Shown piece by piece: positions 51,087 to 57,683 of a DNA stretch of 57,683 nt; the first letter of the stretch is position 1; the number at the start of each line of letters is the position of its first letter. The stretch spans positions 1-57,683 of the forward strand of contig CADBKO010000024.1 in NCBI GenBank assembly GCA_902795345.1. The letters run 5' to 3'. Below the pieces are notes generated by a model. It worked only from the letters and a program-made list of their open reading frames with translations, ran no database searches and was not told the DNA's origin. This DNA is from Oscillospiraceae bacterium (GTDB lineage Bacteria > Bacillota > Clostridia > Oscillospirales > Oscillospiraceae). A program made the translations under genes and the position numbers.

Positions 51087-52910
51087 ATGAAAAAACTTGC
51101 GATTTTCCTTGTACTTGCGCTTTTGCTGAGCCTGTGCGCAGCCTGCGACAAATCGGAGCCGCAGCCCACCGCGGCGCCCACGGCGGCCCCCGCTCCCACG
51201 GAAGCGCCCGCGCCTACGGAGGCCCCCGCGCCTACGGAAGCCCCCACTCCCACGGAGGCTCCTGCACCAACGGAAGCCCCAGCGCCCACGGATGCGCCTG
51301 CGCCTACGGAAGCGCCTTCCCCCACCCAGGCCCCCGCGCCCACGGAACCCCCTGCGGGCGCGCTCTCCGATTTCCTGCCGGACAGCTACTGGATGAGCGT
51401 CAGGCTCGAAACAAACTATGAGGATACGGAGCCCGAGGTCTATGAATACGAGGAGTGGGAGCAGGACACCTTCAACCTGCTGCTGAATGAGGACGGCACC
51501 GGCATCTTCCGCTCCACCTATTGGGGCCCCTACGACAGCGACAACGGTTACATCCAGTGGTCCATCGACGGGGACAACGAGATGACCCTCTACCTCCCCA
51601 GCGGCTATCAGATCTCCGGCCATCTGGAAGGGGAAAACCTGGTCCTGACGGACTATTACAGCTGCACCATCACCATGGAGCAGCGGAACGAGGCGACCCC
51701 GGCGGGCGCAGAGCTGACCACCGACATGCTCAAGGGCAGCTGGATCGCGGACAAGCTGGAGATCGAAGGGGCCGAATCCGATCCCCGGGAGGATCACCTG
51801 CTGATCTACCTGGTCTGCGACGAGAACGGCGCCAACGTATACTGGAACGAGCAGGACGGCTGGGCCAGCTTCTCCGACGAGGACATGGAGCTCTGGAACT
51901 GCTGGACTCCCCTGTACTACGACCATGAGGCCAACGGGTTCTGGTGCGCGGACCTGCGCCGCTCCTACCCCTTCCATCGGGACTACTCCGTCACCGTCAC
52001 CGGGGAGAAGGAAGCGGAAATGCTCATTTACTTCTACTCTCCCACGGAGGAATATCCCACCGTGGTCTGTTGCCACCTGATCCCCGCCAGCCCCAAGAGC
52101 GTGGTGAAGCCCGTGCGGGAGCCCGTCACCGTGGACAACGTGGGCGACCTCATCATGAATCTGCGGGACGGGAGCGAGATCCTGCTGGAGCCCGGCACCT
52201 ACAACATCACCGAATGGCTGCGCAGCCACCCCGGAGAGGTGGGGAACTGGGTGAACATCGAATACGAGGAATATGCCTGGGGTACCTACGACCTCGGCTA
52301 TGATGAGCCGGAGCTGATGATCGCCGGACTGCGGGATCTTACCATCAAGGCAGCCAAGCCCGGCGAGCTGACGGAGCTCGTCTGCGAGCCCCGGCAGGCC
52401 AATGTGCTCAACTTCTCCAACTGCGCCAACATCACCCTGGAAGGCATCACCATGGGCCACACTCCCGAGAAGGGCACCTGTGCCGGCTCGGTGCTGAACC
52501 TGAGCGACTGCTCCGACGTCACCCTCTCCGATATGGACCTCTACGGCTGCGGCGCTTACGGCATCAGCGCTTACAGCTGCTACGGCCTCACGATGGACGA
52601 CAGCATCATCCGGGATTGCACCTATGGCTGCGTCAACATGGTCGATTCCTTCGGCGTGAGCTTCACGAACGATGTGTTCCGGGACTGCGAAGGCTTCTAT
52701 ATGCTGGAGCTGCACTACACCGCCGCCGATTTCCGGGAGTGCGCCTTTGAGAACCTGGGCGGCGATTTCCTCCATGTGGACGACAGCTCCCACGTCAGCT
52801 TCACAGGCTGCGCCATGGACGACGGGACCAGGGCCTTCCTGGAGACCCACCCCGGCTTCGGCACCCTGATCGAGGGCGACTGGGAATCCGCCTCCTCCGC
52901 GAAGGGATGA
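51087..52910 (+). CDS. Secreted lipoprotein with Pro/Thr/Glu/Ala repeats and beta-helix domain
   Basis: A 607-residue lipoprotein. Signal peptide MKKLAIFLVLALLLSLCAAC ends in a lipobox Cys at about residue 20. Residues about 27-90 are a repetitive linker of (A/T)PTEAP units (wall-spanning). The middle (about 95-350) has two similar beta-rich domains with acidic/aromatic composition. The C-terminal part (about 360-600) shows right-handed beta-helix repeats (ILLEPGTYNITEWL, NVLNFSNCANITLEGITMG, VLNLSDCSDVTLSDMDLYG). That suggests carbohydrate binding or processing, but no catalytic residues are evident. AAAAGGAG precedes the ATG. Palindromic element copy C begins at its stop codon. Confidence 0.82.
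   Translation: MKKLAIFLVLALLLSLCAACDKSEPQPTAAPTAAPAPTEAPAPTEAPAPTEAPTPTEAPAPTEAPAPTDAPAPTEAPSPTQAPAPTEPPAGALSDFLPDSYWMSVRLETNYEDTEPEVYEYEEWEQDTFNLLLNEDGTGIFRSTYWGPYDSDNGYIQWSIDGDNEMTLYLPSGYQISGHLEGENLVLTDYYSCTITMEQRNEATPAGAELTTDMLKGSWIADKLEIEGAESDPREDHLLIYLVCDENGANVYWNEQDGWASFSDEDMELWNCWTPLYYDHEANGFWCADLRRSYPFHRDYSVTVTGEKEAEMLIYFYSPTEEYPTVVCCHLIPASPKSVVKPVREPVTVDNVGDLIMNLRDGSEILLEPGTYNITEWLRSHPGEVGNWVNIEYEEYAWGTYDLGYDEPELMIAGLRDLTIKAAKPGELTELVCEPRQANVLNFSNCANITLEGITMGHTPEKGTCAGSVLNLSDCSDVTLSDMDLYGCGAYGISAYSCYGLTMDDSIIRDCTYGCVNMVDSFGVSFTNDVFRDCEGFYMLELHYTAADFRECAFENLGGDFLHVDDSSHVSFTGCAMDDGTRAFLETHPGFGTLIEGDWESASSAKG
51178..51351 (+). repeat. In-frame tandem repeat encoding the lipoprotein linker
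   Basis: Imperfect tandem units of about 18 nt (CCCGCGCCTACGGAGGCC-like) encode (A/P)PTEAP. About nine units are present. Such tracts can change in number by slippage, altering the surface-linker length. Confidence 0.75.
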
Positions 52911-53150
52911 CGCCCTTCTTTGCCGGAATACGGCGCAGCGCCGCAAGCAATAGGAACGCACGCCCACCGCTTCGCGGCGGGTCCCCATTCCGGGCGCGAG
53001 GGCCCATTCCGCGCGCAAGGGCCCCTCGCAGGGATGCGTGCGCTACCCCCTCGCAGGGATGCGTGCGCTACCCCCACGCTGGGACGCGCCTGCTACCCCT
53101 CGCGCGGTGATGCTTGGAGATTCCGGGTTCCCGCGAAGGAAGACAATAAT
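52911..53150 (+). repeat. Dispersed palindromic element, copy C
   Basis: This begins on the base after the lipoprotein TGA with CGCCCTTCTTTGCCGGAA, like copies A and B. It contains the shared inner block CGCCGCAAGCAATAGGAA and the distal GATGCTTGGAGATTCCGG. The middle is GC-rich and repetitive and carries a tandem array at 53022-53095. There is no supported ORF. Confidence 0.65.
53022..53095 (+). repeat. 24/25-nt tandem repeat inside element copy C
   Basis: Units at 53022-53045 and 53046-53070 are identical apart from one extra C (CCCCTCGCAGGGATGCGTGC then GCTA). A third diverged unit is at 53071-53095, and a partial fourth begins at 53096. Confidence 0.8.
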
Positions 53151-53199: not shown

Positions 53200-53300
53200 C
53201 ATTTGCAGCACGGAGGGACAGGGGGACGCTTCCCTCTGCCTTGTCCCTGGCATGTAGTTTCATAAGCACCGCTAATGCACATATATTTATTTCTTAACTC

Positions 53301-53329
53301 TTGCTTTTGCGCGGCGCTTCCTGTATAGT
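53301..53329 (+). promoter_or_regulatory. Promoter of the dinJ-type antitoxin
   Basis: TTGCTT (53301-53306), a 17-nt spacer and TATAGT (53324-53329), about 45 nt before the ATG. Confidence 0.7.
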
Positions 53330-53374: not shown

Positions 53375-53635
53375 ATGAAAACGGTGAATGTGACCCTGCG
53401 GATCGACGAGGACCTCAAGGCAGACGCCGAAGCGCTGTTCGAGGACATCGGGCTGAGCCTGAACGCGGCCTGCCGCATCTTCTTAAAGAGGGCCGTGCAG
53501 GAGCAGCGCATCCCCTTTGAACTGGGGCGGCCGGACCGGAAGACCCTGAAAGCCATCGCCGACGCGGAGCAGGACAAGAATGTCAGCGACGGCTACGACA
53601 GCGTGGACGAGCTGATCGAGGCGCTGGAGAAGTGA
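53375..53635 (+). CDS. RelB/DinJ-family antitoxin
   Basis: An 86-residue type II antitoxin. The ribbon-helix-helix N-terminus (KTVNVTLRIDEDLKADAEAL) would bind operator DNA and autoregulate. The C-terminal part (PFELGRPDRKTLKAIADAEQ) would wrap a YafQ/RelE-type toxin. The next ORF, 208 nt downstream after a MITE-like element, begins with a YafQ-like domain, so this is the displaced partner. That toxin domain looks catalytically dead. Confidence 0.9.
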   Translation: MKTVNVTLRIDEDLKADAEALFEDIGLSLNAACRIFLKRAVQEQRIPFELGRPDRKTLKAIADAEQDKNVSDGYDSVDELIEALEK

Positions 53636-53652
53636 ATAAACGGGGATAAGGG

Positions 53653-53820
53653 AAAGCCCCCTCTCCGAGGGGGGTGCTCCGGCGAAGCCGGAGACGGATT
53701 GTAGCACGCACGTTGCTCGCACGCGGAATAGGGAGTCAGGGTGATTCCCGGCTGCTGCTGATTCGATGCGCTGACTCCTTCAGTCAGCTTTGCTGACAGC
53801 TCCCTCGGAGAGGGAGCCGA
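53653..53820 (+). repeat. MITE-like palindromic element E1
   Basis: The left end AAAGCCCCCTCTCCGAGGGGG and the right end GCTCCCTCGGAGAGGGAGCC are inverted forms of the same CCCTCTCCGAGGG core. Internal hairpins are CTCCGGC-GAA-GCCGGAG, GTCAGC-TTT-GCTGAC (53783-53797) and GCTCCCTC-GGA-GAGGGAGC (53799-53817). Similar GGCTCCCTCNNNGAGGGAGC / GTCAGC elements are abundant in gut Clostridia genomes. It separates the antitoxin from the toxin-like gene. The 23 nt after it (to the AAGGAGG) are identical in copy E2. Confidence 0.75.
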
Positions 53821-53843
53821 AGAGACGCTAAGGAGGTATTATC

Positions 53844-54218
53844 ATGGCAAAGCTCCGCTATACGGTGCGCTTCCGGCTGGATTACCGGCGGAGCATGCGC
53901 AAGGGCTGCAATCTTGGAAAGCTCAAGAGCCTGCTGGCCCTGCTGCGCCGGGGTTCTCCGCTGCCGCTGGACTGCCGGGATACCGCCGTAAGGGGAACGA
54001 AGGCCCGCGCCTGCCGCGTGGAGCCCGGCTGGGTGCTGGTCTATCAGGCGAAGGAAGGGATGGTGACTTTGCTGCGTCTCAAATATAAACGAAGGGAACG
54101 GCCCAAGGCGGCGCCGCCCATGGGACTATGGTTCAAAACGCTCCTGCGCAGCCCGGTCAAGACGGCCTTGACGGTGCTGCTGCTGGCCGTCGCATCCTTC
54201 CTGCTGCTGGATAACTGA
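53844..54218 (+). CDS. YafQ-like domain joined to the N-terminus of an ABC permease (copy 1, cut by frameshift)
   Basis: A 124-codon frame. Residues about 1-83 match the YafQ/RelE toxin fold (LALLRRGSPLPLDCRD, then CRVEPGWVLVYQAKEGMVTL). Aligned to E. coli YafQ, catalytic His50, His63, Asp67 and His87 are replaced (by Thr, Arg, Gly and none); only Trp68 remains, so RNase activity is unlikely. Residues 93-124 (MGLWFKTLLRSPVKTALTVL plus a hydrophobic helix) are the standard start of an FtsX-type permease. The frame stops at TGA 54216-54218, after GAT AAC. The permease continues in another frame from 54215, as if one C were missing. AAGGAGG precedes the ATG. Confidence 0.75.
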   Translation: MAKLRYTVRFRLDYRRSMRKGCNLGKLKSLLALLRRGSPLPLDCRDTAVRGTKARACRVEPGWVLVYQAKEGMVTLLRLKYKRRERPKAAPPMGLWFKTLLRSPVKTALTVLLLAVASFLLLDN

Positions 54219-55294
54219 GCGAGCCGGTAGATGCATTTGAAAGCACGTTTCTTCTGACGGAAATGGGCGAGAGTTATCTTCGTTTCAACTATGAAAGCAC
54301 CCATCACGAGGCCCTTACAAGAGAAAACCTGGAAGTCCTGGAGGCCCTGCCCTATATCGACGCGGTGGATAAGCGATACATGACTGCCGGCGTTTCGGAG
54401 GAATACATGCGCAACGGCGGCCCCTATGCCAACTACGGTTATATCGACCGGCTGGTCATCGAAGCTGCCGTGACGAGCAAGGGGAGCGTGGCGCTTGGCT
54501 TCAACAGCGCCGTCAGGCTCCGTCTGGCGGACGTGAATCTTCTGGCAGGAGACCCCAGAACCCTGGACGAACAGCTGAAGGAACTGAATGGGACCGCGAA
54601 CCTGCTTGCGTCCACCATTTCGGAAAGCAGCATTGGCACGGATCACCATGTTTTTGTGGGAAGCGGCAGCGGTTACAGCGTGGACAGCTTTGGATATGAC
54701 ATCACCCGAACGCTGACCGATACCATTGAGAAAGGGCGGCGTTATGTCTTCGTGGTCCGGGCCCCCCGCTATGCGCCCCTCAACGACAGCGGCTATGGCT
54801 TCTGGCTGGGGGACGACAGCCTCAAGGGCTGGTGGCCCTACGTCACGGATGTGACTGACCTGGGGCCGGATTACCTGGAAACGGAAGAATTTGCCCAGCT
54901 GCGTCAACTCATCCAGATCACCAACGACGACATCCACACCTTCGACATGGTTTATACCGACGATATGGCCTCCATCCGCCGTGTCACCCGGCAGCAGCTC
55001 ACCCCCGTGCAGGGCCGCTTCCTGGAACCGGCGGACGAGGGAAAGGCCGTTTGCGTGGTGAGTGAGGCTTTCTTGGAACGCAGCGGCCTGGGTGTTGGGG
55101 ACGAGATTACCCTCCGCCTGGGAAACCGCCTGGTGGAGCAGTATGAGCCCCTGGGGGCCGTGGCCGTCACCCGCGAGCGCTATGCCTCAGCCTGGGAGGA
55201 GCAGAGCTTTACCATTATCGGCTCCTGGAAAGACGCCGGGGGGCGGCGCTGGCAGGAGCATGAATATTACAACTTCTATTCCACCGGCTCCTAG
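54219..55294 (+). pseudogene. FtsX-type permease, extracellular part (copy 1, second fragment)
   Basis: Reading CTG AGC GAG from 54215 continues the permease as LSEPVDAFESTFLLTEMGES and then the long extracellular (MacB-like periplasmic core) domain to YYNFYSTGS, where TAG 55292-55294 stops it. An internal ATG at 54263 has no ribosome-binding site. The codons after the TAG stay in frame with the rest of the permease. So the permease is split by one frameshift and one nonsense codon unless these are assembly or sequencing errors. Confidence 0.75.
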
Positions 55295-57214
55295 CAGGCC
55301 CAGGACCCCTACTGGGCTTATTCGGAAAACGCCATCTTTGTTCCGTCTTTCTTTCTGCCGGAAAGCTGCGATACCGAAAACCACCAATTCCGCCCGGCGG
55401 AGGTGAGCTTCCTGGTGCGGGACGCGGCAAACATCGGCGCTTTCGCAGAAGAAGGCCTGCCCCTGGTGGAGCAGTTGGGAATGAGCTATGCATGGAGCGA
55501 CGCCAATTGGCCTATCGTGGCGGAAAAGATGGCTCAAACCCGGAGCCTCACCCTATTGAAGCTCCTGATCTTCACCGTGGCCTCCCTCCTGGCGGTGGGG
55601 CTGACCCTATACCTGTTCCTCCACCGGCGGCGGAAGGAATACGCCGTCCTCCGCGCTCTGGGTACGCCCCGGCGGGCAGCGGCCCGGGCCCTTTGGCTGC
55701 CCCTGCTGGCCCTGGCGATCTTCTCCGCCATCTTGGGCCTGGTGGTCGCCTGGCTGCGCAGCGGAGCGGCGGCACAGCGGAGCGCCGCCGAATTTGCCGA
55801 AGCGGGATTGGAGGCCATGCCCCAGGCCCACTTCGCCGTCTATCTTCTGGGGGCGCTGGGCCTGCTGCTGGTGACCGGACTTCTGGCCGGGGCCTATCTT
55901 CATGGCCTGGGGAAACGCAGCCCTCTTCAGCTCCTTCAAGACAGCGAGCGCAGGAAGGAAAAAACCGCCGAAGCCGCTGCGGAGATCAGCCCGGAGGCGA
56001 TGGCCCATGCTGCGGCGGTGCTGGCTTTCCCTGTCACCGCTGCCGGGAAATCCGTCAAGGGCTTCCTGCGGCGCTATGTCCTGCGGCATATCCGGCGGGC
56101 CGGGGCGAAGACCCTGCTTGCCCTGCTGCTGGCGGCCCTCCTGGTGGGGGCCGTGGGGCAGCTCACGGTGCTGCGCAGCCGCTATGCCGAGCTGGCCGCC
56201 ACGGTGCTGGTGGACGCCTGCTTCTACGACGGCCTCACTTACAACAAAGCGAAAACCCTGATGAAATCCGGCCTTCTCCACGATCCCGTCTGCCGGAAGC
56301 TGTATCAGGAATCGGAGGCGGAGCTGGAGTTTTCCCCCACCAAGGTTGTGTTCACCAACCGCCTTGAGCTTGAGATCACTGAGCCCGTATCCTGGCTGGA
56401 AGGCTGGGATGCGGAGAAGGCGGACAATGCCTGCGAAATGATCTGCATCCTTCCTGCCCCGGTCATGGAGGAGCTGGGGGTAGCGCTGGGGGACAAGGTG
56501 CGCATCGATGAGGCAGGCTGCTTTAGCCATCTGATCACCGGCCATCCGGAAGTCGTCGTCAAGACCTGGGAGGATATGGTAGCCCTGCGGGACCGCTACC
56601 GCAATTTCTACACCGTCGTGGGACAGGTGGAAACGGAGGAGCCGGACTATGTCGTCTATGCCCCCGCCGAAGCCTTTCAGTATTACAGCTGCCTGGGCTA
56701 TGTGCTCTATCTGGACTCTGCCACTTTTACCCTCAACGACTATCACGACGCGGACCGGGTGCGGCAGATGGCGGCGGAGATCCAGTACACGGTCAAAAAG
56801 CCCCCGGTGTTCAGCATGGACACCGCCGACGCGGACCGCATTTACCGGGTATATCGCCTCATTGAAACGCTCTATCCCCTGACCGTGGCGGCTGCGCTGA
56901 TTTTGGGGACGCTGCTGCCGGTGCTGATGATCCTTCAGGAGCAGAAGGAGGCGGCGATTTTGCGGGCCCTGGGCTGGTCGAAGAAGCTGACGATCCGGCG
57001 GCTGACATTGGAGCAGGCGCTCCTATGCCTCATGGGGCTGGTGCTTGCCATCGCCGCCCTGTTCGCGGTGAACGGCTTGGGCTTCCTGGGGGTGATCGTC
57101 GTGCCGCTGGTGTATGTGATTGCCCACTTCGCCCTCTGCGTGGGGGCCTCCGCTGCCATCTCCGCGTCCATCCTGCAAAAGAGCCCCATGCGGCTATTGC
57201 AGGTGAAGGAATAA
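55295..57214 (+). pseudogene. FtsX-type permease, C-terminal part (copy 1, third fragment)
   Basis: This is the same frame as the previous fragment, from QAQDPYWAYSENAIF to the stop 57212-57214. It contains the first FtsX transmembrane block (LTLLKLLIFTVASLLAVGL, KEYAVLRALGTPRRAAARAL), a second extracellular domain and the C-terminal FtsX block (AAILRALGWSKKLTIRRLTL, LLCLMGLVLAIAALFAV). A GTG at 55403 is the first alternative start. No ATPase partner gene is in the window. Confidence 0.78.
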
Positions 57215-57216
57215 GA

Positions 57217-57300
57217 AAAGCCCCCTTCTCCGAGGGGGTGGCATCGCCGCCAGGCGCTTCGCGCCAGCTCCCTCGGAGAGGGAGCCGAAGAGACGCTAAG
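57217..57300 (+). repeat. MITE-like palindromic element E2
   Basis: A short version of E1: left end AAAGCCCCCTTCTCCGAGGGGG, a hairpin GGCGCTTCGCGCC, and right end GCTCCCTCGGAGAGGGAGCC. The flank GAAGAGACGCTAAGGAGGTATTA before the next ATG is the same as after E1. Confidence 0.75.
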
Positions 57301-57311
57301 GAGGTATTACC

Positions 57312-57683
57312 ATGGCAAAGCTCCGCTTTACTTGGCGCTTCCGGCTGGATTACCGGCGGAGCATGTGCAGGGGCTGCAGCTTGGAGAAGCTCAAAAGCCT
57401 GCTGGCCCTGCTGCGCCGGGGTTCTCCGCTGCCCCTGGACTGCCGGGACACCGCCGTGAGGGGAACGAAGGCCCGCGCCTGCCGCGTGGAACCCGGCTGG
57501 GTGCTGGTCTATCAGGCGAAGGAAGGGATGGTGACTTTGCTGCGTCTCAAATATAAACGAAGGGAACGGCCCAAGGCGACGCCTCCCATGGGACTATGGT
57601 TCAAAACGCTCCTGCGCAGCCCGGTCAAGACGGCCTTGACGGTGCTGCTGCTGGCCGTCGCATCCTTCCTGCTGCTGGATAAC
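57312..57683 (+). CDS. YafQ-like domain + ABC permease N-terminus (copy 2, cut by window end)
   Basis: A partial gene nearly identical to copy 1 (about 95% over the first 280 nt; from ATGGGACTATGG to the end, 98 nt, identical). It starts MAKLRFTWRFRLDYRRSMCR and keeps the same substitutions of YafQ catalytic residues (LPLDCRDTAVRG, CRVEPGW). The window ends at GATAAC, precisely where copy 1 shifts frame. No antitoxin gene precedes this copy. Its continuation is unknown. Confidence 0.75.
   Translation, partial: MAKLRFTWRFRLDYRRSMCRGCSLEKLKSLLALLRRGSPLPLDCRDTAVRGTKARACRVEPGWVLVYQAKEGMVTLLRLKYKRRERPKATPPMGLWFKTLLRSPVKTALTVLLLAVASFLLLDN

Follow-up and report, generated by a model that had tools for sequence, protein, structure and literature searches.

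Many toxin-antitoxin (TA) modules are found on chromosomes, and the reason for their retention is a long-standing question. The described system closest to the locus analysed here is the type II module DinJ-YafQ, with which it shares a RelB/DinJ gene upstream, the YafQ fold (PF15738) and a promoter placed before the antitoxin gene. However, the toxin frame here continues without a stop into a permease, giving chains of up to about 1,230 aa, the essential active-site residues are gone, and a single antitoxin gene is accompanied by up to three fusions. As reported in PMC9592637, DinJ and DinJ-YafQ bind the operator and repress their own operon, and, in classic modules, repression can first be reinforced by bound toxin and is then relieved once toxin is in excess. 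The second likeness is to FtsX/MacB-type (type VII) ABC transporters, which have the same FtsX and MacB_PCD domains and a downstream ATPase gene, but here a toxin-derived domain precedes the first membrane helix and an antitoxin gene sits in the regulator slot. PIN (VapC-like) and ParE modules, with their adjacent AbrB/MazE-type and RelB-type antitoxin genes, respectively, also have counterparts in our data, except that these are fused in frame to an FtsX permease and have lost conserved residues. Transporter-bound control of a transcription factor is familiar from MalK-MalT and BceAB-BceRS; by analogy, part of the transporter would here hold or signal to a regulator, although the contact would be a putative domesticated TA interface. 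A search of the open-access literature found no report of a toxin-FtsX fusion system.

Organization of the window

The window covers contig G000:C24 of genome G000 completely (57,683 nt), and its features were assigned from profile and sequence searches (Table 1). The initial annotation had read a DinJ-type antitoxin gene followed by a YafQ-like domain joined without a stop to the start of an ABC permease, with the same fusion recurring 3.4 kb downstream, and all of these elements were confirmed. In both copies the PF15738 match spans residues 3-79 and the frame reads through into the permease start MGLWFKTLLRSPVKTALT, and the two copies lie 3,468 bases apart, start to start. The permease domains match FtsX (PF02687, E 1e-14) and MacB_PCD (PF12704, E 9e-7). 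At the equivalents of E. coli H50, H63, D67 and H87, both copies carry T, R, G and R, in agreement with the replacements first noted, the H87 column being nominal only because these copies are of a shorter form that lacks the H87 segment. The structure predicted for copy 2 aligns with crystal structures of YafQ-type toxins at TM values of 0.80-0.87 of the target (Foldseek matches to the YafQ fold: 4mmg, 4q2u and 4ml0), which suggests that the fold is kept, as had also been proposed. None of seven proteins matched the anti-phage defence models of PADLOC.

Table 1. Features of the fusion operon in the window
Feature	Position	Strand	Evidence or remark
GCACATA element 47 nt ahead of the -10 box; operator or activator site (candidate)	53277..53283	+	promoter comparison
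Predicted operon promoter: TTGCTT, 17 nt, TATAGT	53301..53329	+	sequence; comparison of 8 dinJ upstream regions
RelB/DinJ-type antitoxin gene, predicted DNA-binding regulator	53375..53635	+	TIGR02384 E 6e-22; RelB PF04221 E 3e-14
Interspersed inverted-repeat element between dinJ and fusion	53656..53817	.	arms 53656-53676, 53797-53817
Copy 1 ribosome-binding site AAGGAGGT, 6 bases before fusion ATG	53830..53837	+	sequence
Copy 1: YafQ domain (aa 1-84), linker and FtsX permease start	53844..54218	+	PF15738 E 2e-10; stop after 124 aa; own-genome search
Copy 1 remaining permease, pieces 54263-55294, 55295-55402, 55403-57214	54263..57214	+	MacB periplasmic core and FtsX domains
Copy 2 ribosome-binding site AAGGAGGT, 6 bases before copy 2 ATG	57298..57305	+	sequence
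Copy 2: YafQ domain and permease start, cut by contig end	57312..57683	+	PF15738 E 5e-10; P0039 start match

Copy 1 is broken in this assembly by a deletion or frameshift: its frame stops at 54216, about 44 codons of the close intact protein are absent, and an in-frame stop lies at 55292 in the permease. Its later pieces are identical to P0037, a 1,151-aa fusion, at 342/343, 36/36 and 597/603 residues. Copy 2 agrees at 124/124 residues with the beginning of P0039, a fusion of 1,157 aa found on contigs of up to 90 kb. Both proteins could derive from further assemblies of this strain or of a very similar one. The right end of the inverted-repeat element (53775-53843) recurs, mostly as its first 44 bases, at 18 genomic places.

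Distribution of the fused proteins

Fusions were found in all seven genomes examined of the window's genus. Two protein searches returned 52 and 53 fused YafQ proteins with eight common to both, i.e. 97 distinct proteins, a number that rules out a chance fusion, the longer copies being 742-1,229 aa; PF02687 is precomputed in 95 of them, and the other two are 736 and 705 aa long. The window genome itself encodes two more: one at C25:35740, cut by a contig end, with an open frame of 1,144 aa (1,127 aa from its ATG), and one of 759 aa at C5:10671. A broken first copy and a cut second copy might be taken as signs of a local accident or misassembly at a contig end followed by duplication, but long open fusions lie on many contigs, the longest of 138 kb, from several sources, and we regard such an artefact as ruled out for practical purposes by the fusions in other genomes, in the window's own genome and in the protein database. 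Likewise, the earlier alternative that permease DNA had fused into a decaying toxin gene and was then duplicated is unsupported as a general account, although copy 1 itself has decayed. In 12 of 52 type A proteins and 13 of 44 type B ones (one of 45 type B proteins was dropped as it lacks the exact motif), the 20-residue stretch leading up to the permease motif is free of Met, which argues for a single polypeptide and makes a separate internal permease start unlikely. Sources that name these transporters of about 1,150 aa call them toxins.

Among 300 genomes sampled from the family and 394 from the order, YafQ fusions were seen only in the window's genus and g72, where rarer fusions could be missed as only the best candidates per genome were scored, and the window genome was the only one of its genus among the matches of the order search. 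Metagenome assemblies are the source of the named relatives. Outside the window's genus and g72, the YafQ matches are small genes, most with a stop inside the matched stretch. YafQ and permease are not always separate genes: within the window's genus only fused YafQ was seen, and separate yafQ genes occur in other genera. Six stretches in four genomes of another family, leaving aside two similar ones in G510, match mainly in the permease part and showed no YafQ domain on inspection.

Loss of active-site residues and selection on the fused domain

According to PMC6529426, the toxicity of YafQ in vivo is abolished by single mutations of H50, H63, H87, D67 or F91. The equivalents of H63 and H87 are kept in 0/98 fused domains versus 23/23 stand-alone relatives, and that of H50 in 1/98 versus 22/23; the D67 equivalent is kept in 24/98 fused domains, or 24/45 in type B. 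This column assignment was upheld by aligning the stand-alone relatives to E. coli YafQ chains. The fused toxin domain is therefore probably catalytically inactive, judging from these residues. The upstream antitoxin gene and the tandem copies would suit a working addiction module, in which an active fused toxin makes loss of the transporter operon lethal; however, such a module is highly improbable given that the essential H63 and H87 are missing from every one of the 98 fused YafQ domains and that the acidic loop of the fused PIN domains is deleted in both cases.

These PIN domains belong to one of two further toxin families fused to the same FtsX permease family, namely ParE (7 proteins), which adjoins a RelB-type antitoxin gene, and PIN (PIN_3; 2 genomes), which adjoins an AbrB/MazE-type one. 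The acidic RDxxD loop and GDKD are absent in 2/2 fused PIN domains and present in 11/11 stand-alone ones; the fused ParE has lost a conserved Tyr, a loss by which inactivity is not proved. The PIN fold is not known as a ribosome-binding fold. Its fusion at the same place counts against another cytoplasmic role of the fused domain, such as binding ribosomes or RNA so as to place permease translation at the membrane, or docking a different partner, and none of these roles predicts an accompanying antitoxin gene. Even though YafQ acts on ribosomes, as stated in PMC6529426, and an inactive YafQ could still bind RNA, we consider a role of this kind improbable.

After omission of pairs with pS < 0.1 (2 of 66 in one set and 1 of 28 in the other), the fused YafQ domain has a median pN/pS of 0.51 and 0.43, respectively, which indicates purifying selection on it. 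Recruitment of a toxin fold onto a transporter, the part of the initial proposal of a docking module that we could support, is thus borne out by recurrent in-frame fusion, residue loss and purifying selection, as well as by the regular presence of DinJ upstream and by the separate ParE and PIN versions; docking as such is a putative step.

The antitoxin gene and a putative regulatory cassette

dinJ lies upstream in 16/16 fusion operons of the genus with enough sequence, with two ABC genes between dinJ and the fusion in the C5 operon; tandem copies occur, with at most three fusions per dinJ, and for the g72 fusion (G251) the 260 upstream bases available contain no dinJ. Downstream, an ABC ATPase gene is present in seven of the eight fusion operons with downstream sequence, about 2.3 kb away in one of these, and the eighth has no adjacent ATPase gene. 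GCACATA recurs 46-47 nt upstream of the -10 box in 7/8 type A dinJ promoters, while in base shuffles (n=2000) no 7-mer was common to more than 4/8 of them. As the operons concerned are related, the promoter elements that they have in common could in part be due to ancestry. The ParE operon promoter contains a perfect 9-bp palindrome.

In contrast to the fused operons, DinJ is absent from the vicinity of all 18 unfused sister permease genes; upstream of 15 of them lies a gene of the sigma-factor, XRE, PadR or BlaR type. The permease tree excludes the split L091 permease, G001:C63 and the two copies of the window, and includes 8 fusions picked by choice from 104 in the database. On this tree, the YafQ label takes 10 changes, of which at least 7 are forced; hence the antitoxin and fused domain behave as a regulatory cassette that can be swapped. 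Two tandem operons each have a single dinJ; within them the YafQ domains hardly differ, silent sites included (pS 0.01-0.12), whereas the permease bodies have diverged (pS 0.39-0.55). DinJ and YafQ distances correlate with r of 0.64 and 0.84, and with 0.70 and 0.77 as partial correlations on the permease body, for which 2 of 8 type A operons had too little permease body; in type B, the DinJ distance also tracks the permease body (r 0.68). As dinJ adjoins the YafQ segment, linked inheritance alone could yield such a correlation. When DinJ and YafQ were modelled as a single read-through chain, the predicted fold (pTM 0.51) did not settle the complex.

From this we infer, with rather more confidence than doubt, that the fused, probably inactive toxin domain titrates an antitoxin that likely represses the operon, the two forming an exchangeable regulatory cassette. 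The toxin domain, mostly YafQ but also ParE or PIN, stands where an FtsX-type ABC permease has its N-terminus, predicted to be cytoplasmic, and the DNA-binding antitoxin from the gene directly upstream would repress the operon; once anchored at the membrane, the toxin domain would bind the antitoxin and draw it off the promoter, with titration or release depending on the level or state of the transporter. On this one permease family, the cassette of antitoxin and fused domain has repeatedly changed places with ECF-sigma, XRE and BlaR-type cassettes. Since toxin can strengthen repression in classic modules, the sign of the effect here could be opposite. A rather unlikely alternative is that the fused domain makes no contact with DinJ in vivo and is a structural cap or leftover whose removal would unfold the permease N-terminus, with DinJ regulating alone or idle. 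This would agree with the loss of the C-terminal strand in type A domains, which could weaken antitoxin binding, and with the absence of any such N-terminal domain in the unfused sisters, but it sits poorly with purifying selection on the fused domain, with the restriction of DinJ to fused operons and with its covariation with YafQ after allowing for the permease body; moreover, three toxin families, each beside an antitoxin gene, are hard to fit to a generic cap.

Beyond the titration model, we suggest more tentatively that TA modules may have been domesticated several times as plug-in transporter regulators, with the working state of the transporter setting its own expression; the YafQ, ParE and PIN versions suggest that any toxin fold with a DNA-binding antitoxin might be usable. 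This lineage allows the fate of TA modules to be read from sequence, the active site being lost and the gene pair kept, and here the pair fills the position that sigma-factor, XRE or BlaR-type regulators have in other operons of the same transporter family. It also carries a warning that annotation may label transporters as toxins. If binding is confirmed, TA interfaces would be a source of new signalling parts. In some rumen bacteria, then, the front end of a transporter is a toxin domain without the known active-site residues, and the neighbouring antitoxin is likely the switch of the operon.

Toxin-permease fusions in the window and their distribution

The window, the entire contig C24 of a 2.75-Mb genome (G000) in 66 contigs, carries near its end an antitoxin gene and two YafQ-permease fusions, as listed in the table. 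In both fusion frames AAGGAGGT lies 6 bases 5' of the ATG. As assembled here, copy 1 is interrupted: a stop closes its frame after 124 amino acids, and the remaining permease lies downstream as fragments that match the 1,151-aa fusion P0037 with identities of 342/343, 36/36 and 597/603; copy 2 is truncated by the contig end, and its 124 residues are all identical to the start of the 1,157-aa fusion P0039. These two proteins, database entries without a stated source, may derive from the same strain as the window or a very close one. A search of the same genome revealed two further fusions outside the window, one on contig C25 whose open frame (1,144 aa) extends to a contig end, and one on C5 of 759 aa, with the other half of the permease in a separate gene that overlaps it by 4 bases.

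Features of the fusion loci in the window and on contig C5 (locus L010)
Feature	Position	Context	Evidence
607-aa lipoprotein-like frame	window 51087-52910	signal-like start, then Cys, PTEAP repeats	
Three 25-nt tandem repeats	window 53022-53096	upstream of dinJ; two identical, third 76% alike	
RelB/DinJ antitoxin gene	window 53375-53635	near contig end	TIGR02384, E 6e-22
Interspersed inverted-repeat element	window 53656-53817	separates dinJ from copy 1; right end has 18 matching places in genome	
Copy 1, YafQ domain into FtsX-type permease start, no stop between	window 53844-54218		PF15738
Part of the inverted-repeat element	window 57256-57309	5' of copy 2	
Copy 2, YafQ domain into FtsX-type permease start, no stop between	window 57312-57683		PF15738
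ABC ATPase of different type and membrane protein	L010:7056-8620	between C5 dinJ and fusion	
Split C5 fusion	L010:8672-12054	two genes sharing ATGA overlap, versus single long frame in C25	

The recurrence check proposed in the initial annotation retrieved many proteins in which YafQ leads into an FtsX permease: 52 of type A (the window's kind, with a shorter YafQ domain) and, in a second search, 45 additional proteins of type B (C-terminal YafQ strand kept), with 8 of the 52 re-found; the searches admitted only proteins 0.55 to 1.75 times the query length. Nor is the fusion limited to the window's contig end, since it occurs in 7/7 genomes of the genus examined and in a second genus, g72. The family search (300 sampled genomes, 67 matched) found YafQ outside the genus as small stand-alone genes, g72 apart, and the order search (394 sampled, 85 matched) likewise found small stand-alone genes elsewhere; among these sampled genomes, fused YafQ beyond the genus was seen in g72 only (in G251, and as fragments at the ends of G152 contigs). 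Three Oscillospiraceae assemblies supply the named relatives, two of them labelled sheep rumen, and RUG in the name of the third denotes rumen.

The initial annotation knew of no described system of this kind, and we likewise found in the open-access literature no description of a YafQ-FtsX or YafQ-permease fusion, a toxin-antitoxin-FtsX fusion or an inactive toxin-transporter system; the passages covered of a survey of type II systems (PMC2701414) mention no such fusion. The definition of a type II toxin-antitoxin system asks for a separate, active toxin, so the fusion system falls outside it, but a type II module is the source from which it is built.

Fold and residues of the fused toxin domains

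Other toxins also occur in YafQ's place. In G004, another genome, one permease carries a ParE domain (PF05016, E 1e-13) and is preceded by a gene for a RelB-type antitoxin (PF04221, E 7e-11); seven ParE-permease fusions were found, six of them short (733-763 aa). A PIN domain is fused to the permease in two g72 genomes, at L100 (PIN_3, E 5e-6, just above the curated cut-off) and L104 (E 0.007, below it). An AbrB/MazE-type antitoxin gene lies directly 5' of the L104 fusion (PF04014, E 2e-9). The second PIN-fusion genome has one in the same position (PF04014, E 1e-9) on the contig piece L190, which shows the same PIN start. Stand-alone ParE and PIN relatives also occur in the family.

In 23 stand-alone YafQ proteins of the family, H50 is kept in 22 (one unread), H63 in 23, D67 in 22 and H87 in 23 (E. 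coli numbering). Among 98 fused domains, of which 52 are type A, 45 type B and one from g72, the equivalents are kept in 1, 0, 24 and 0, respectively, and alignments to E. coli YafQ chains agree with these columns. The replacement of active-site residues first noticed in copies 1 and 2 extends to these fused domains, and type A is also without the segment bearing H87 and F91. Single mutations at H50, H63, D67 or H87 end YafQ toxicity in vivo, according to the part of PMC6529426 used here. Similarly, the acidic RDxxD loop and GDKD motif are missing in 2/2 fused PIN domains and found in all 11 stand-alone ones compared, and a Tyr of ParE is kept in 23/24 stand-alone relatives and missing in 7/7 fused, a loss that does not by itself prove inactivity. 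From their sequences we infer that the fused toxin domains are catalytically inactive.

The fold was said to persist despite this loss, and the structure model of the copy 2 YafQ domain (pLDDT about 90) agrees: structurally it comes closest to YafQ-type toxins from H. pylori, E. coli and V. cholerae, with TM (of target) of 0.80-0.87 to crystal structures and 0.66-0.70 to two NMR models, so that, as modelled, the fused domain retains the core YafQ fold. Median pN/pS of the domain, 0.51 in type A (64/66 pairs) and 0.43 in type B (27/28 pairs), indicates that it is under selection. No Met lies within 20 residues preceding the permease motif in 12/52 type A and 13/44 type B proteins, and thus these proteins have no permease start at the usual place, as fits a toxin domain and permease made as a single chain. 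Net charge is +3 to +5 before the first membrane helix and -2 to -5 after it in 5/5 proteins checked, which by the positive-inside rule would place the toxin domain in the cytoplasm.

Exchange of the antitoxin-toxin cassette

When 50 permease bodies, fused and unfused, are placed on one tree, the YafQ-fused label requires 10 changes, at least 7 of them forced by well-supported branches. The fused C25 body of G000 is sister to the XRE-type L080 (support 100/98), that of P0049 to the XRE-type L079 (96/90) and another to the ParE clade (100/99); fused bodies also fall among those of the ECF group and next to BlaR-type ones. In two tandem operons, each with a single dinJ, the YafQ domains are nearly identical down to their silent positions while the permease bodies diverge: pS is 0.01 between YafQ domains and 0.39 between permease bodies in G006:C81, and 0.05-0.12 and 0.50-0.55, respectively, in G003. 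DinJ distances correlate with YafQ-domain distances in type A (r 0.64, Mantel 0.004, n=8) and type B (r 0.84, Mantel 0.0002, n=8), also when allowing for the permease body (partial correlation 0.70, n=6, and 0.77, n=8); permease-body distances are not followed in type A (-0.27) and are followed in type B (0.68). Because dinJ lies next to the YafQ segment, joint transfer accounts for part of the DinJ-YafQ correlation; with or without it, the two behave as one module.

A DinJ-type gene lies upstream in 16/16 genus fusion operons with upstream sequence, a count omitting four genus fusions cut at the contig start and G251 of g72, where no dinJ was seen in the 260 upstream bases; in G152 (L103) a DinJ gene precedes a YafQ frame that runs off the contig. 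DinJ matched at none of 17 loci holding 18 unfused same-family permease genes of the genus. Of these 18 genes, 15 are preceded by a different regulator gene according to Pfam (8 ECF-type sigma factors, 3 BlaR-type M56 sensors, 2 XRE, 2 PadR), so that in the fusion operons the antitoxin gene occupies the place of such regulators. At L084, L085, L088-L091, L094 and L095 the sigma factor gene is followed by an extra gene (DUF4367 in L085) and then the unfused permease, perhaps an arrangement in which a sigma/anti-sigma pair controls transporters of this same family. G247 (family f1, genus g60) shows a large expansion, with 12 permease matches of this family, and the five inspected were all unfused. 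An FtsX-type ATPase gene is downstream in 7/8 fusion operons with enough sequence (one 2.3 kb away); none follows the G001:C33 fusion. As no stand-alone YafQ is among the matches listed for the seven genus genomes (70-91% complete), DinJ there has no recognised YafQ toxin to neutralise.

Promoter motifs and a predicted regulatory circuit

Promoter-like boxes lie immediately 5' of the antitoxin gene. In type A, GCACATA occurs 46-47 nt 5' of the -10 box in 7/8 operons, where 2000 base shuffles of the eight regions gave a 7-mer common to at most 4/8, with shared ancestry of these related operons contributing to the conservation. In type B, GTATTGCA and TGCAATAC arms flank the -10 box in 2/8, with the left arm only in 2 more. 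In the ParE operon, a perfect palindrome (9-bp arms, 3-base centre) fills the TTGACA-TACAAT spacer and extends into TACAAT. Inverted repeats of this sort are bound by DinJ and by DinJ-YafQ in known modules, with repression as the result, according to the portion of PMC9592637 consulted.

The antitoxin most likely acts as repressor of the transporter operon and would be bound by the permease's toxin domain, which is cytoplasmic and probably inactive; a direct model of the DinJ-YafQ pair gave pTM 0.51 and no settled complex. The regulatory sign could be opposite, because toxins are also able to reinforce repression. The sequence features described above are observed; from there we infer antitoxin binding, repression, titration and a response to transport, with MalK-MalT and BceAB-type control as comparison systems. 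In the proposed titration, the amount of transporter would set the level of free repressor, via antitoxin held by the toxin domain, and perhaps the ATP- or substrate-driven state of the transporter would do so as well.
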